Shown here piece by piece: positions 5,976-12,847 of a stretch of DNA of 42,374 nucleotides; the stretch's first letter is position 1; every line of letters starts with the position of its first letter. A program made the position numbers and the translations under genes. The notes beneath the pieces are model-generated. The model was not told where the DNA came from. It made no database searches and saw only the letters and a list, made by a program, of their open reading frames with translations. The stretch is from Thermotogae bacterium (GTDB lineage Bacteria > Thermotogota > Thermotogae > UBA12178), in NCBI GenBank assembly GCA_021161835.1, contig JAGGZV010000094.1, positions 1-42,374 on the forward strand, given 5' to 3'.

Positions 5976-7148
5976 ATGAAGAAGGTCATCATGATCCGTT
6001 ATGGAGAAATAGGACTGAAAGGTCGCAATAGATCAGATTTCGAAAAGAGATTACTTGAAAATATAAAAACCACTTTTGGAAAAGAAGTCGACATTCACAT
6101 TCGACATAAAAGGTTGATACTTCCGGTGGTTGATGAAGAAACGTTGAAACTGTACGAACGTCTACGATTCGTTGCGGGTATCCAAAGCTATAGCCTGGCA
6201 TACATGACGGATCGTTCAAAAGACCAGATATTGAAAGCCATCATCGAACTCGTCGAGAACGAGAAAGACGGTGTGAGTACCTTCAAAGTGGAGACCAGAA
6301 GATCGTACAAGAAGTTTCCATGGAGTTCAATGGAATTCAGCGCCCTCATGGGTGAGGAAATATTAAAACGTTTTCCATATCTGAAGGTGAACCTGAAGGA
6401 ACCGGATCTTCTCATAGGTGTGGAGATACGCGAGGAGGGTGCATACGTATTCACCGAAAAAGCGAAAGGTATGGGTGGGTTGCCTGTTGGAAGCTCTGGA
6501 AAAGGAATGGTGCTACTCTCTGGCGGCATAGATAGTCCTGTGGCTGCGTGGATGATGATGAAACGTGGTGTTAGAATAGAAGCGGTTCACTTTGCCAGCC
6601 CACCGTATACAGGGGAACAGGCGAGAGAGAAGGTCTTTGATATTTGCAGAGTACTTGCGCGGTATTCTAATGGCTTTTTAACCCTCCACATAGTACCATT
6701 CACAAAATTGCAGCTTTCCATACACAGAAGCGTTCCTACGAAATACAGCCTGGTGGCCCAGCGAAGAGCCATGGTGAGGATAGCCGAAAAACTGGCGAGC
6801 CGCAGAAGAGCAGATGTACTGATAACTGGCGAGAATCTGGGGCAGGTGGGTTCACAAACCATAGAAAATATGAAGACCATATCCTCCGCAGCATCCATTA
6901 TGGTGTTGAGACCGCTGGTAGGGTTAGACAAGCAGGAAATCATAGCGTTGGCAAGAACACTGGAAACGTATGAAATATCGATAAGACCCTTTGAAGATTG
7001 TTGTACGATTTTCGTTCCCAAACATCCGGCCACCAGATCCACTCCAGAACTTCTGGAGAATCTTGAGAAGAACATACCAGATTACGAAAAGCTAATAGAG
7101 GAGGCAATAGAGAATGTTGAAACCTTCGATGTTGAAGCAGTTTGGTAA
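5976..7148 (+). CDS. thiI: tRNA 4-thiouridine synthetase ThiI
   Basis: 390 residues. It has an N-terminal ferredoxin-like plus THUMP region for tRNA binding and a PP-loop ATP pyrophosphatase site LLSGGIDSPVAAWMM. The conserved FEDCCTIFVPKHP follows near the C-terminus. There is no rhodanese domain, so this is the short form found in many bacteria and archaea. It adenylates U8 of tRNA for sulfur transfer; the short form may not serve thiamine synthesis. The ATG at 5976 follows a GGGGGGCCAGGAG purine-rich ribosome site. Confidence 0.94.
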   Translation: MKKVIMIRYGEIGLKGRNRSDFEKRLLENIKTTFGKEVDIHIRHKRLILPVVDEETLKLYERLRFVAGIQSYSLAYMTDRSKDQILKAIIELVENEKDGVSTFKVETRRSYKKFPWSSMEFSALMGEEILKRFPYLKVNLKEPDLLIGVEIREEGAYVFTEKAKGMGGLPVGSSGKGMVLLSGGIDSPVAAWMMMKRGVRIEAVHFASPPYTGEQAREKVFDICRVLARYSNGFLTLHIVPFTKLQLSIHRSVPTKYSLVAQRRAMVRIAEKLASRRRADVLITGENLGQVGSQTIENMKTISSAASIMVLRPLVGLDKQEIIALARTLETYEISIRPFEDCCTIFVPKHPATRSTPELLENLEKNIPDYEKLIEEAIENVETFDVEAVW

Positions 7149-7902
7149 TTTTCTGTATTCCCTGTTGATGAGTTTGTGGTTCTATGTAGCTTTCTTCAGC
7201 TATGTAATAATCTACGGCTCGTTCGTGGCATGGAGACAGAAAATACTCTCGAAAACCAGGGGTGAAAAAGCCGCAAGAGAATATCTCATCAACGAGGTTG
7301 CAAAATTCGGACGCAGGGCTTTCTCGTGGTTTGGAATAAAAGTGATTTGTATGGGTGAGGAAAACGTACCCAGAGAAAAGGAGGGTTACGTCATCATCGC
7401 CAACCATCTGAGTACCATGGATATACCACTCATTCTGGGATATGTAAATGGTGGCACGGCCTTCATAGCAAAGGCGGAGTTGAGCAAAGTACCAGGAGTA
7501 TCCCATTACACGAAAAAACTCGGAGGATTGTTCATAAAACGAGGCGATCCCAAGCAAACAGCAGGAGTTTTGAGGGTGATGGCCAGAGCTATAAGAGACG
7601 GGAAAGTATTCACCATATTTCCCGAAGGAACCAGGAGTCGTGATGGAAAAGTTGGACCTTTTCGAAAGGGAAGTCTGGCAATACCTTATAAACTCGGTGT
7701 AAAGGTGCTTCCCGTTTCAATATACGGTACCGGGAGAATAATGAAACCCCGATCACTTCTACTGAATCCAACCAGGGTGGGGATACACATTCACCCCATG
7801 ATCGACCCTGCCGATTTCGGGAGTGAAGAAGAGCTGCGAGAAAAAGTGCGTGAAGTTATAGTAAAGGGATGGGAAAGGTTGAGGAAGGAGGTGGAAAGAT
7901 GA
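7114..7902 (+). CDS. plsC: 1-acyl-sn-glycerol-3-phosphate acyltransferase (PlsC family)
   Basis: 262 residues. A hydrophobic N-terminal segment (about residues 12-38) should anchor it to the inner membrane. The acyltransferase motifs are NHLSTMD (H-x4-D catalytic pair), FIKRGD and FPEGTRSRDG. It transfers an acyl chain to lysophosphatidic acid to make phosphatidic acid. The start at 7114 has AGAGGAGG 9 bases upstream and lies 35 bp inside the end of thiI. The downstream nuclease start overlaps by ATGA, so the three genes are coupled in translation. Confidence 0.93.
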   Translation: MLKPSMLKQFGNFLYSLLMSLWFYVAFFSYVIIYGSFVAWRQKILSKTRGEKAAREYLINEVAKFGRRAFSWFGIKVICMGEENVPREKEGYVIIANHLSTMDIPLILGYVNGGTAFIAKAELSKVPGVSHYTKKLGGLFIKRGDPKQTAGVLRVMARAIRDGKVFTIFPEGTRSRDGKVGPFRKGSLAIPYKLGVKVLPVSIYGTGRIMKPRSLLLNPTRVGIHIHPMIDPADFGSEEELREKVREVIVKGWERLRKEVER

Positions 7903-8432
7903 AGCGTGTAATCGTGGAAGCCCTGGTTCTCGATAGGGTACATAACACACCCGTGGTATTGCTCAGAATAGAAAATACTAACAGGGTCTTACCCATATGG
8001 ATAGGATCCTGTGAAGCATTGGCGCTTTCCATGGCACTGGATGGAGTGGAATTTCCACGTCCTATGACACACGATCTTCTACTCAATGTTCTGGAAGCTC
8101 TGGATGCAAAACTTGAAAAGGTCATAATACACTCCATAAAAGACAACACCTATTACGCTTCCCTGATACTGAAAGATCTTTCGTATGGTGAAGATGAGGA
8201 TGCACCATACATCGAAGTGGATGCTAGACCATCGGATTCCATAGTTCTTGCCACGAAAAAAGGTGTTCCCATATATGTGAGCAATGAACTGGTGCTGGAA
8301 AACTCCATAGAATATACCGCTCAGGATGAAGAGAAAGAGCAATTCAAAGAGTTCGTCGATAAACTGGATATAGATCAATTTCGAAGACTCGTCAAGGACG
8401 AGCAGAGTGAAGATGATGAACGAAGTGGATGA
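7899..8432 (+). CDS. Bifunctional nuclease family protein (DUF151)
   Basis: 177 residues from the ATG at 7899, which has GGAGGTGG four bases before it; a reading from 7869 lacks this support. The N-terminal two thirds match the DUF151 fold (VLPIWIGSCEALAL, DARPSDSIVLA). Members, including a T. maritima protein of known structure, have been described as nucleases; physiological roles are poorly known. The last ~50 residues are charged (UVR-like helical tail EEKEQFKEFVDKL). The start overlaps plsC by ATGA, and its end overlaps the polyprenyl synthase by 26 bp. Confidence 0.9.
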   Translation: MKRVIVEALVLDRVHNTPVVLLRIENTNRVLPIWIGSCEALALSMALDGVEFPRPMTHDLLLNVLEALDAKLEKVIIHSIKDNTYYASLILKDLSYGEDEDAPYIEVDARPSDSIVLATKKGVPIYVSNELVLENSIEYTAQDEEKEQFKEFVDKLDIDQFRRLVKDEQSEDDERSG

Positions 8433-9270
8433 AAAGAAACTCTGGTTCGACAAAAAATTACAAATGTTCCTGGAAACTCCTGAAGACCTTTCATGGGCAC
8501 GTTCCATGGTGATTTACACTCCTTCAATAGGCGGAAAACGTTTCAGACCAGTTCTCATGCTGACGCTGGGGGAAGACCTTGGAGTTGATAAGGAATCGTT
8601 GATATGGCCTGCCATGGCCGTCGAGATTCTTCATGCAGCTTCTCTCATACACGACGATCTGCCGGCTATAGATGATGACGATTACAGAAGAGGAAAACTC
8701 TCCTGCCACAAAGTTTTTGGAGAAGGTAAAGCGATAGTTGTGGGTGATATCCTCTTTTTCAAAGCCTTTGAAGCTCTTGTACCGTTGACCAGGGAATTTC
8801 CCGGTTTGAATACGTTGTTTGTAGAGGCTGCACTCAACCTTGGGTATGGCGAACTAAGCGACATAGATTTTGAAAGCAGGGAAGTTACGTTGGATGAAAT
8901 ACTGAAAATGTATGAAAGGAAGACAGGTGCGCTACTCGGGTTCTGCCTTTCCGCTCCAGGAGAACTTGCAGGCCTGGAACACATCGAAGTAGAAAAGTTG
9001 AAGAAATGTGGACAGGAGTTGGGAATAGCATACCAGATCTACGATGATGTTAAAGATGTGGTGGGCAGCTTCGAAGAGCTGGGAAAGACACCCGGTAAAG
9101 ACGAAAAACAGGGTAAAAAGACTATTCCTTCCATTATAGGTATCGATGAAGCCATGAAAATGGGCGATGAAATATTTGAGAGGGTGATGAAAACACTTGG
9201 GGAGGAGTTTTCGGCATGGAAAACGGTGAATTTCCTGAGATCGATGAGACCAACACTGAAGAAGAAATAG
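8407..9270 (+). CDS. ispA: Polyprenyl (farnesyl/geranylgeranyl) diphosphate synthase
   Basis: About 287 residues. The first aspartate-rich motif is HDDLPAIDDDDYRRG, and the second is YDDVKDVVG (DDxxD type, substrate Mg2+ sites). GKRFRPVL near the N-terminus binds IPP. It condenses isopentenyl diphosphate with allylic diphosphates; the product chain length cannot be settled by eye, though the size and the two residues between the first Asp clusters fit the bacterial FPP/GGPP type. The start is ambiguous among GTG 8407 and ATG 8413 or 8416, all inside the preceding gene. Its 3' end overlaps the next gene by 55 bp. Confidence 0.9.
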   Translation: MKMMNEVDEKKLWFDKKLQMFLETPEDLSWARSMVIYTPSIGGKRFRPVLMLTLGEDLGVDKESLIWPAMAVEILHAASLIHDDLPAIDDDDYRRGKLSCHKVFGEGKAIVVGDILFFKAFEALVPLTREFPGLNTLFVEAALNLGYGELSDIDFESREVTLDEILKMYERKTGALLGFCLSAPGELAGLEHIEVEKLKKCGQELGIAYQIYDDVKDVVGSFEELGKTPGKDEKQGKKTIPSIIGIDEAMKMGDEIFERVMKTLGEEFSAWKTVNFLRSMRPTLKKK

Positions 9271-11747
9271 TGGAAACCTCTGCACGGAAAAGTCGGAACA
9301 TCTTCAACACTCTTCTTAAACGACTTGAACGCTGGAAACCAACGGCCAAACTTCTGGACTTTGTGAAGACCCACCGCCTCATATCGGTGTTCGGTGGGGT
9401 GGGTATAATTATGCTTGTAATAGCATTGATGGTGTTCACGAAGAGTGCCCCACCATCGGTGGGAGCGAGCGAAGAAGAAGGAGGCTATGTCCAGTACAAT
9501 CTCGTGGAAATCGATGTGCCACCTGGTGCCTATCCATCGGAAAAGTTCTTCAAAGTGGAAGAAATATCACCAGATTCACCTGAATACACCGATTACAAAA
9601 CATTGGCCAACTTCGAAGGTCCCATATACCGAGTGTATCCCTCAGACGGTAAAGACGAACTTGCACTGAAACCCCTTAAAATCAGATATCGACTGGACCC
9701 GCAGTTGTATCCCGGTGATGAATTTGTACACTTTACGTTGCGCTACGTTACGTTAAACGAACCTCATGTGGTTGGCACACTATATGGTTGCGAAGTGGTC
9801 GAAAAGGGTGGAGTCAAATACCTGGAAGGAACTGTATTTCATGCTTCGTTCGTGGTGGGTATCTCTTTCAAAAAACCAGAGTACGCAGATTTCGGTATAA
9901 GACTCCTGGTGGACAAACCACCTACCTTAAAGCCCTCGATCCTGATTGTTCCAGGTATTGACCAGAATTTCGTGGGAACCATTCCCAACACCTTCACGCC
10001 TGAAAATCCTGGTGGTAGCAACATATGGGAAATGCTCTTCCCTGACAGACCCATCTGGGTCTACAAGTATCCTCTACTGTCAACCAAACCACGTAATTAC
10101 ATGAGAGCTTTTGAAAGACATCAGCAGACTTCACCTGTACCAACCTACATAGATTTTGAAGCGAGAAGACTGGCTGAAGAATTGGAACGTTTGAATAGGT
10201 ACACCTTCGATATAATAGCTCATGACATAGGTGGGTTGATAGTACGATACGCTCTGGAGAGTAATCCCAGAATCAAAAATGTCAGAAGTGTTGTACTGGT
10301 AAGTACTCCCAACACAGGCACCAACGTAACGAACCCTCTGTATTTTTCCACTCTATACGGTAAGCCTCCCGATATCATAGCTGAAGCAATGGGAGGTAGC
10401 AGGGTGGCAATATCTTTCATAACCACCCACATACTCTCCACGTTCGAAAAGGTGAACACCTACTGGCGAGAAATCCTGCCCACCGGTTTGAGCATACGAA
10501 AGCTGGAATCGTTCAACGTTCGAAAAGATATAAGATACCTGTGTATAGCCGGATCAACGCCACCCATAGAAACGGGTATAAAAGGGACGGAACTCGAGAA
10601 ATTTTATCCCGAATTGACAGATGGAGAAGGAGATGGTTTCGTTAGCGTAAAAAGCGCTCTAATGGAAGAAAGCAAGAATCTGATGTTTCCCTACTCCTTT
10701 ACAGAACTCTATCTCAAAGGAGATGTGCTGAACGCTATAAAGGATTTTCTCAACGAGGGTATAAAACTTCCAAAGGTACCGGAATTCAAAACCGATGAAT
10801 TTGTGGAAACAAAAGTGGTGAAGAGAAAAGAAGAAAAACCAAGGATAGAGCCCTGGAAAAAGTATCTTTTACCTGAACTGAAAAAAGGAAGAATTCTGAA
10901 GTCGACCTGGAAATTGAGCACACCTGATCTGGGTGAACCTTACGGTTCCGCGGATGGATGGTATTATCTTGTGGTACACAATGGGGTATACGTGTGTAAT
11001 CCTCCCAAGAAGTGGACGAGGATCCTAGATGGAGAGGTGGTAGCTCACAACTTCTACAATGATAGCATGATAGTAGTAACGAATGAAAGGGTAGAAGTGC
11101 TGAGAAGAGGGAAGATAGTTGATTCATGGCCTTTGCCCACCTTCACCGGTAATGTTCTGGATGCATGGTACAGAACAGATGGCAGAGGTATCATGCTCGT
11201 TGATGTAGAGGGCAGATTATTACTCTACTTTGTGAAACGCAATGAAATAAGATATTCCTCCACTGTGACATCCACCTATGCTCGCTTGCGCGGAGAAAGA
11301 GCGGAAGTGTTCTTGATAACGGAAAGCTCTGTATCGAGCTACGATATTGAAACTTTCAAGAAGAAGTGGACATTGAACACAAGCATGATGATGAAGAGAT
11401 TGAAGATGAAAGAGGGAGCTCTCATAAGACCCATAGATGTTGTACGCGTTGGTAGGGATCTTTTCGTGCTGTTCAAAGATTATATAATCGGCGTGTTCGA
11501 TCTGTACTCTTATTCTGCACAGGTAGTGGCGTACGGCGAGCTGGGATCGAAGAGACTCATGAGATTCGGTGATTTTGTCCTTGCAGTTGGCGAGAATACT
11601 CTTGGGGGGTTCGACTATATCAATAAAAAGAGGATAGAATTTTATCAGATAATCAAAAAAGGGAAAATAGGGATGGGCTATAAAGAGATGTTGATATCCT
11701 ACGAAGAAGGTGGAAGATTTTGGTTGGAAGGGTTTTCAATACGTTGA
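9216..11747 (+). CDS. Membrane-anchored alpha/beta-hydrolase-fold protein with C-terminal beta-propeller; nucleophile position is Asp
   Basis: 843 residues. The cytoplasmic N-terminus is short and acidic, with one membrane segment at about 56-74, so most of the protein should face the periplasm. Residues 90-225 look like a ZU5-like beta domain. Residues 238-520 resemble a PGAP1/lipase-type alpha/beta hydrolase: SILIVPGIDQNF strand, nucleophile elbow IIAHDIGGLIVRY (Asp337 where lipases have Ser), VSTPNTGTN, and the acid in TDGEGDGFVSV. The C-terminal His that usually follows is not apparent (SFTELYLKGDV at 494-504). Residues ~560-843 have repeated strands ending in WYYLVVHNGVYV-like units, suggesting a beta-propeller. 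The ATG at 9216 has GGGGAGGAG upstream. It could be a pseudoenzyme or an Asp-nucleophile hydrolase. The downstream TPR gene overlaps it. Confidence 0.75.
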   Translation: MENGEFPEIDETNTEEEIVETSARKSRNIFNTLLKRLERWKPTAKLLDFVKTHRLISVFGGVGIIMLVIALMVFTKSAPPSVGASEEEGGYVQYNLVEIDVPPGAYPSEKFFKVEEISPDSPEYTDYKTLANFEGPIYRVYPSDGKDELALKPLKIRYRLDPQLYPGDEFVHFTLRYVTLNEPHVVGTLYGCEVVEKGGVKYLEGTVFHASFVVGISFKKPEYADFGIRLLVDKPPTLKPSILIVPGIDQNFVGTIPNTFTPENPGGSNIWEMLFPDRPIWVYKYPLLSTKPRNYMRAFERHQQTSPVPTYIDFEARRLAEELERLNRYTFDIIAHDIGGLIVRYALESNPRIKNVRSVVLVSTPNTGTNVTNPLYFSTLYGKPPDIIAEAMGGSRVAISFITTHILSTFEKVNTYWREILPTGLSIRKLESFNVRKDIRYLCIAGSTPPIETGIKGTELEKFYPELTDGEGDGFVSVKSALMEESKNLMFPYSFTELYLKGDVLNAIKDFLNEGIKLPKVPEFKTDEFVETKVVKRKEEKPRIEPWKKYLLPELKKGRILKSTWKLSTPDLGEPYGSADGWYYLVVHNGVYVCNPPKKWTRILDGEVVAHNFYNDSMIVVTNERVEVLRRGKIVDSWPLPTFTGNVLDAWYRTDGRGIMLVDVEGRLLLYFVKRNEIRYSSTVTSTYARLRGERAEVFLITESSVSSYDIETFKKKWTLNTSMMMKRLKMKEGALIRPIDVVRVGRDLFVLFKDYIIGVFDLYSYSAQVVAYGELGSKRLMRFGDFVLAVGENTLGGFDYINKKRIEFYQIIKKGKIGMGYKEMLISYEEGGRFWLEGFSIR

Positions 11748-12847
11748 TAATGTTTCTTGTGCTTTCCTTCATTCCTATCTTGCTCTTTTCCCAGGCCAGT
11801 GATGAGCGCCTGAATATGGCTTTCAGGCTGTACAATGAAGGACTTGCAGCATATCAAAGTGGAGAATTCGAGCGTGCCCTCAAACTTTTTGAGGAAGCAC
11901 TGGTAATTCTGCCCGAAATGGAGTCCTATGCTCCCGAGATAAAACTGTACATTGGTGTCAGTGCATATTATATTGGTGATTACGCAAAGGCCAGAACCTA
12001 TCTTCAACTTTTCCCGGAGTCTCCCCTTGCTCGAGAATTGCTGGAAACGATGAAAAACAAGAAGGTGGAGGAGCTGCCATCCTTCCGTGAAAAAGTTGAA
12101 ACCACACATGCAGGCACCACTTCAACGGAGGGAACAAAACGAGAAACCAATTTTCTAACCATTCTGTTTTTACTCACACCACTCATAGGTGTGGGAGGAT
12201 TCTTTCTGGTATTTCTGATTCTTTTGAAATTGCGTGGACCTGTGATCGCGGAAGCACTCGTCCCCGCCCGACAAACATCACAGATGGAAACTGCAGAAGC
12301 TCAGGAAACCGCTATTGAGCAAGGACCGATACTTTCCAATGAAGGTGGAATAATAGAAGAAATCGATGTGGGGGAAATCCTGAAAACGGATCTCGAGGAT
12401 GTAAGAGAACTGCTTTCCGACGTGGAAAGCATGGAAACGCAAGAAAAGGTAGAAGAAGTAGAAGAAAAAACCGCAGAAGCAAAAGAAGTGGCGGAAGAAA
12501 TGTTAGAAGAGAAGGAAACGGCTGGAGTTGACATAACCGAAAGCAAAACGGAAGGTGCGGAAGAACAGGAATGGCAGGAACAGGGTGAGAAAATGCTCTA
12601 CCTTTTCCAGGAAGCACTGGATATACTGGACGATAAATTGAATGAAATATCGGAAAAACCCGAGACAGGAGAGGAGGTCGGACCCGAAGATCTGGAAAAG
12701 TTGAAGATGTCATTCGATGAGATAGTGGAAAATCTTGAAAAGAGCGAAGAAATAGATGATGAAGATCTTCACATATTGCTTGTAAAGGCTCGTGATCATG
12801 TATTGGGAATAGATGTAGAAGAAGAGGAGGGAGAAACAGAAAATTGA
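11720..12847 (+). CDS. TPR-containing membrane protein with acidic C-terminal tail
   Basis: About 375 residues. A signal-like hydrophobic stretch (residues 8-25, ending LLFSQA) is followed by TPR-type helices (LYNEGLAAYQSGEFERALKL, then IGVSAYYIGDYAKARTYL). A second membrane segment lies at about 145-170. The remaining ~200 residues are very rich in Glu and predicted helical or coiled, presumably cytoplasmic. The TTG at 11720 is used because purine-rich AAGG/GGAAG precedes it; an ATG at 11750 has no ribosome site. It overlaps the hydrolase-propeller gene by 28 bp, so the two products may act together in the envelope. The exact function is unknown. Confidence 0.7.
   Translation: MVGRVFNTLIMFLVLSFIPILLFSQASDERLNMAFRLYNEGLAAYQSGEFERALKLFEEALVILPEMESYAPEIKLYIGVSAYYIGDYAKARTYLQLFPESPLARELLETMKNKKVEELPSFREKVETTHAGTTSTEGTKRETNFLTILFLLTPLIGVGGFFLVFLILLKLRGPVIAEALVPARQTSQMETAEAQETAIEQGPILSNEGGIIEEIDVGEILKTDLEDVRELLSDVESMETQEKVEEVEEKTAEAKEVAEEMLEEKETAGVDITESKTEGAEEQEWQEQGEKMLYLFQEALDILDDKLNEISEKPETGEEVGPEDLEKLKMSFDEIVENLEKSEEIDDEDLHILLVKARDHVLGIDVEEEEGETEN

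Follow-up and report, generated by a model that had tools for sequence, protein, structure and literature searches.

A Thermotogota-wide alpha/beta-hydrolase-fold protein that has lost its catalytic triad and is co-inherited with a TPR membrane protein: probably a binding component of the cell envelope

RESULTS

Gene order and domain layout

The window (the whole 42,374-nt stretch of DNA that was analyzed, a contig from a Thermotogae bacterium) carries on its forward strand, at positions 9216-11747, an open reading frame for a protein of 843 amino acids (...FDIIAHDIGGLIVRYALES...), referred to below as the pseudo-hydrolase. Three conserved neighbors lie upstream on the same strand: genes for a PlsC-type acyltransferase (7114-7902), a protein with a bifunctional-nuclease (BFN) domain (7869-8432) and a polyprenyl diphosphate synthase (8407-9270). 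Downstream, and also on the forward strand (11720-12847), is a gene for a TPR protein composed of an N-terminal signal or transmembrane (TM) segment, the TPR region, a second TM segment and an acidic tail. Its start is either the TTG at 11720, which overlaps the pseudo-hydrolase gene, or the ATG at 11750. The order ThiI - PlsC acyltransferase - BFN - polyprenyl synthase - pseudo-hydrolase - TPR is kept wholly or largely in most families of the phylum. In the family designated f10, the polyprenyl synthase gene is not adjacent to the pseudo-hydrolase gene, and the TPR partner gene is present but unlinked, elsewhere in the genome; the gene downstream of the pseudo-hydrolase there (loci L019-L026, L030 and L032) encodes a different small membrane protein (HLFLAHFVADHGFT...).

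The pseudo-hydrolase begins with a membrane segment at residues 52-82 (9369-9461; Kyte-Doolittle peak 2.77), and the positive-inside rule predicts a cytoplasmic N-terminus with the remainder of the protein outside. No lipobox was seen by eye in the N-terminal region. According to structure models described below, the segment is followed by a beta-sandwich domain at residues about 93-232 (9492-9911), for which no Pfam family was found, by an alpha/beta-hydrolase-fold domain at residues about 233-515 (9912-10760) and by a C-terminal beta-propeller of about 28 strands in about 7 blades at residues about 560-843 (10893-11744). An earlier note on this DNA had proposed, as one of two readings, a non-catalytic binding domain fused to a ZU5-like domain and a propeller. 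That reading is supported here in all but the ZU5-like label, for which Pfam gave no support: with matches accepted up to E 10, none of 13 family members aligned to the ZU5 profile over residues 93-225.

Predicted fold

AlphaFold2, supplied with an alignment of 16 homologues, returned a model of residues 80-843 with a mean pLDDT of 86 and a model of residues 93-530 with a pLDDT of 91.6 and a pTM of 0.90. In both, residue 337 sits in a tight turn that leads from a core strand into a helix, which is the geometry of a nucleophile elbow; the position assigned to this residue in the earlier note thus holds, and the models offer no placement of it off the elbow. When compared with the PDB by Foldseek, the top matches were lipases (6wpy, 1ex9 and 6cl4, E about 1e-8), followed at lower rank by the non-enzymatic NDRG2 and by haloalkane dehalogenases; TM-scores were modest, and the query carries the additional beta-sandwich. 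With the full model, BamB chains came first (TMt about 0.5) and WD40 proteins scored similarly; BamB and WD40 propellers are the nearest solved structures for the C-terminal domain. The Pfam family DUF7379 (PF24096) was matched at 32.9 bits against a gathering cutoff of 33, and at E<=0.1 by 19 of 20 family members; Palm_thioest, PGAP1 and Abhydrolase_1 were other weak matches, and a search of PDB sequences with the family profile gave none. The models and the lipase matches, together with the profile alignment given below, identify a predicted alpha/beta-hydrolase fold that contains the strand-turn-helix elbow.

Catalytic positions and an intact control

The DNA reads directly as AHDIGG at residues 335-340 (10218-10235), with the codon GAC (10224-10226) specifying Asp337 where Ser is expected, as the earlier note had stated. 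We used as a control a group of short secreted alpha/beta hydrolases (about 330 aa; L038-L045 and L116-L125) that occur in the same phylum and partly in the same genomes. They share the fold and have detectable homology with the pseudo-hydrolase, but have neither propeller nor sandwich domain and possess a full Ser-Asp-His triad in the motifs AHSMGG, NDGMVPxxSA and HADL. Alignment of the two profiles by hhalign (99.6%, E 7e-24) set residue 337 on the nucleophile Ser of AHSMGG, residue 473 on the acid and residue 495 on the His of (S/N)HADL. Because the paralogue Ser, Asp and His columns fall on these three residues, loss of the triad is not a guess from alignment, and since the short paralogues have the whole triad, the 843-aa protein is properly termed a pseudo-hydrolase.

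Homologues were found across the phylum by a profile search of genome contigs, a single-sequence search having given none, and we counted residues in 68 full-length Thermotogota sequences. The elbow column contained Gly in 51, Glu in 10, Asp in 6 and Ser in 1. By contrast with this tolerance, the acid position, a feature not mentioned in the earlier note, is kept: Asp473, in the GDG of residues 472-474 (10629-10637), was present in 68/68. Phe495 (10698-10700) marks the catalytic-His position, which held Phe in 47 sequences, Trp in 10, Tyr in 5, Ala in 4, Val in 1 and Ser in 1, that is, an aromatic residue in 62/68 and His in 0/68. The suspicion that the expected C-terminal His is missing was therefore correct. 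Nor was there a conserved His in any column of the whole protein, the highest value being about 65% of the 68 rows. In addition, the oxyanion-hole dipeptide HG that follows the first core strand, which the short paralogues keep, is PG here (residues 246-247), with P in 95% of the 68 rows.

Of what a serine lipase or esterase needs, then, the family has the acid and has lost Ser, His and HG. It shares with lipase family I.1 and the PGAP1-, Palm_thioest- and DUF7379-type hydrolases the fold, the elbow position and the GDGxV acid loop, but differs from them in these three replacements and in having a TM anchor, a beta-sandwich and a propeller.

The Asp at the elbow

The earlier note had alternatively proposed an unusual Asp-type hydrolase. 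Such an enzyme, using the chemistry of dehalogenases or epoxide hydrolases in the lineages that carry Asp337, would account for the HD.G-like elbow in the window's species and in one clade of f10, and haloalkane dehalogenases are indeed among the fold matches. Both of these enzyme groups share the elbow Asp with the window's species. Yet in the present family the Asp is not conserved (6/68) and the base His is missing, its position being occupied by Phe in the window and by Ala or Val in the f10 Asp clade, with no conserved His elsewhere to replace it. The tree of homologues, which follows families, points to two origins of Asp, one within f10 and the other in the lineage to which the window belongs, and to a single origin of Glu, in an f10 clade that is sister to the one with Asp; both homologues from the genus most closely related to the window's lineage (its sister genus; genomes G001 and G002) have Gly. 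We consider an active Asp hydrolase very improbable. Gly looks to be the ancestral elbow state, an inference drawn from a tree with a midpoint root. Asp337 is, on this sequence evidence and as part of an explanation that we hold to be likely as a whole, a variant at a tolerant elbow position and not a nucleophile.

Orthologues with Ser at the elbow, which the earlier note had named as counting against its view, amount to 1/68. This sole example (L098 in genome G068, ORF at 2480, forward strand) reads ANSVGG, has no His at the base position and nests among Gly rows in the tree. We also considered whether Asp or Glu at the elbow is tied to the lost adjacency of the TPR partner in f10, and rejected this, as the partner is still present there and the window combines Asp with an adjacent partner.

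Outside the phylum, distant alpha/beta-hydrolase proteins with a Gly elbow were observed in KSB1 (L064, 4575-6542; AQGVGG) and in Caldisericia (L065, 3399-6443; AHGIGG). Both retain a His after the acid loop. Possibly these are independent losses of Ser, as found by a search pattern that required G or D at the elbow; no further members of the KSB1 family appeared in 60 genomes searched.

Selection and retention

We determined dN/dS for twelve close pairs, eleven of which were measurable for the hydrolase domain. Whole-protein values were 0.06-0.29. For the hydrolase domain, values were 0.036-0.11 in 10 of the 11 pairs and 0.15 in the remaining one, and the domain fell below the propeller in 10/11, the exception being L023/L026. 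Purifying selection on a catalytically dead domain implies that the domain has some job, though not one of triad catalysis.

These values bear on the proposal that the protein is a functionless, degenerate enzyme in the course of being lost, as its missing catalytic residues might suggest and as split or broken copies in family f7 (L022 in G027, L024 in G036, L112 in G058 and L111 in G063) might seem to illustrate. We set the broken copies aside as signs of decay: the break in G063 is an assembly gap (NN), and the other three are frameshifts in draft genomes, apparently single ones in G027 and G036, which may be real or sequencing errors. Against the proposal also stand the purifying selection, strongest in the dead domain itself, and retention of the protein, usually one per genome, in nearly all Thermotogota families (78/103 genomes) and together with its partner. 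Decay of a useless enzyme thus seems to us extremely improbable.

Co-occurrence with the TPR protein

Profiles of both proteins were run over 103 genomes of the phylum, and occurrences were counted by hand with weak paralogue matches ignored. Both proteins were present in 77 genomes, the pseudo-hydrolase alone in 1, the TPR protein alone in 0 and neither in 25. The single unpaired case, G069, is 71% complete and its gene is cut by a contig end. The genomes with neither are 17/17 of family f9, which is presumably Kosmotogaceae, G017 and G020 of family f4, four genomes from genus g33, and two drafts, G067 and G089. The upstream operon genes persist in f9 and in G017 and G020, and the polyprenyl synthase gene is accordingly not co-lost with the pair. 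We estimate about three lineages of independent co-loss, two of which retain the upstream genes. Such repeated co-loss supports a shared function; it speaks for a linked fate of the two genes, not for physical contact between the proteins. At the place of the pair after the polyprenyl synthase, five f9 loci (L142, L143, L145, L147 and L148) have, on the opposite strand, a protein-kinase-like gene with the motif GxGGFGITY.

Two further explanations of the pair must be weighed against this distribution. The first would make it an accessory of outer-membrane-protein assembly, in which a BamB-type propeller and a BamD-like TPR partner would act as analogues of the BAM lipoproteins but with their anchor in the inner membrane. 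BamB chains head the PDB matches of the full model, and within NCBIfam the TPR partner scores best against BamD/YfiO, although weakly and far below the cutoff. However, matches of propellers and TPRs are generic, as the similar WD40 scores illustrate; the pseudo-hydrolase, unlike BamB, shows no outer-membrane lipoprotein signal, its anchor being a TM helix and not a lipobox; and the pair is absent from Kosmotogaceae-like bacteria, which also possess an outer membrane and a toga. Such an accessory role appears improbable.

The second would make the dead pocket a receptor whose ligand, acyl or isoprenoid in nature, resembles what the neighboring PlsC and polyprenyl synthase produce. The lipase-type fold, together with the conservation of the PlsC, BFN and synthase genes as neighbors in most families, suggests a ligand of lipid type. 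The suggestion is weakened by persistence of these genes where the pair is absent and, since the synthase is moreover not adjacent in f10, the linkage may be merely chromosomal. A receptor of this kind we regard as doubtful.

DISCUSSION

The predicted fold, the lost triad, the purifying selection and the co-occurrence with the TPR gene form the basis of our reading that the 843-aa protein probably serves as a binding element in the cell envelope and not as an enzyme. It is likely, in our estimation, that we are dealing with a phylum-wide Thermotogota pseudoenzyme, a periplasmic binding or scaffold module whose work in the envelope is shared with the TPR protein. Its N-terminal helix would hold it in the inner membrane, and the beta-sandwich, the dead lipase-type domain and the approximately 7-bladed propeller would all lie in the periplasm. 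The hydrolase fold would have been retained as a binding or scaffold surface, with replacement of Ser by Gly (secondarily by Asp or Glu), of His by an aromatic residue and of HG by PG, and with retention of the GDGxV acid loop. Together with the TPR membrane protein encoded beside it, the pseudo-hydrolase would probably form a single complex within the envelope and there bind or tether one of the envelope's components. Alternatively, the invariant acid may be a sign that unusual chemistry persists.

We offer more tentatively, and as an unlikely elaboration, that the pair works across the membrane as a device for sensing or tethering. The dead lipase domain would then serve as a periplasmic receptor for a ligand or protein and would pass its state to the TPR protein and thence to the acidic cytoplasmic tail of the latter. 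If so, most Thermotogota would possess an envelope system that is as yet undescribed and that has been lost from Kosmotogaceae and from two further lineages.

Neuroligins, gliotactin, neurotactin, a thyroglobulin domain and NDRG2/NDRG3 have been described as proteins that lost the triad, kept the fold and were recruited to protein-protein interactions (PMC5943944, PMC7022630). By sequence and model, the pseudo-hydrolase shares with this eukaryotic non-catalytic class a lost triad in a fold that is kept under selection, and NDRG2 is among its fold matches. It differs in that the eukaryotic proteins are of another subfamily and have no propeller or TPR partner, whereas the Thermotogota family keeps the invariant acid.

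In a literature search that covered few subscription journals, we found no paper on the present family. The homologue from genome G093 we take to be TM0162 of T. maritima, from the locus order and from an upstream neighbor that matches PDB 2ftz; a literature search for TM0162 brought up nothing but unrelated strings (STM0162 of Salmonella).

The best-known non-enzymatic proteins of the alpha/beta-hydrolase fold come from animals, and the Thermotogota example is bacterial, phylum-wide, strongly selected and equipped with a co-inherited partner. Its host envelope is the toga, the inner architecture of which is poorly known. The findings also warn against annotating homologues of the pseudo-hydrolase as lipases or Asp hydrolases, and they make the pair a defined two-gene target for genetics and structural study in a model thermophile.
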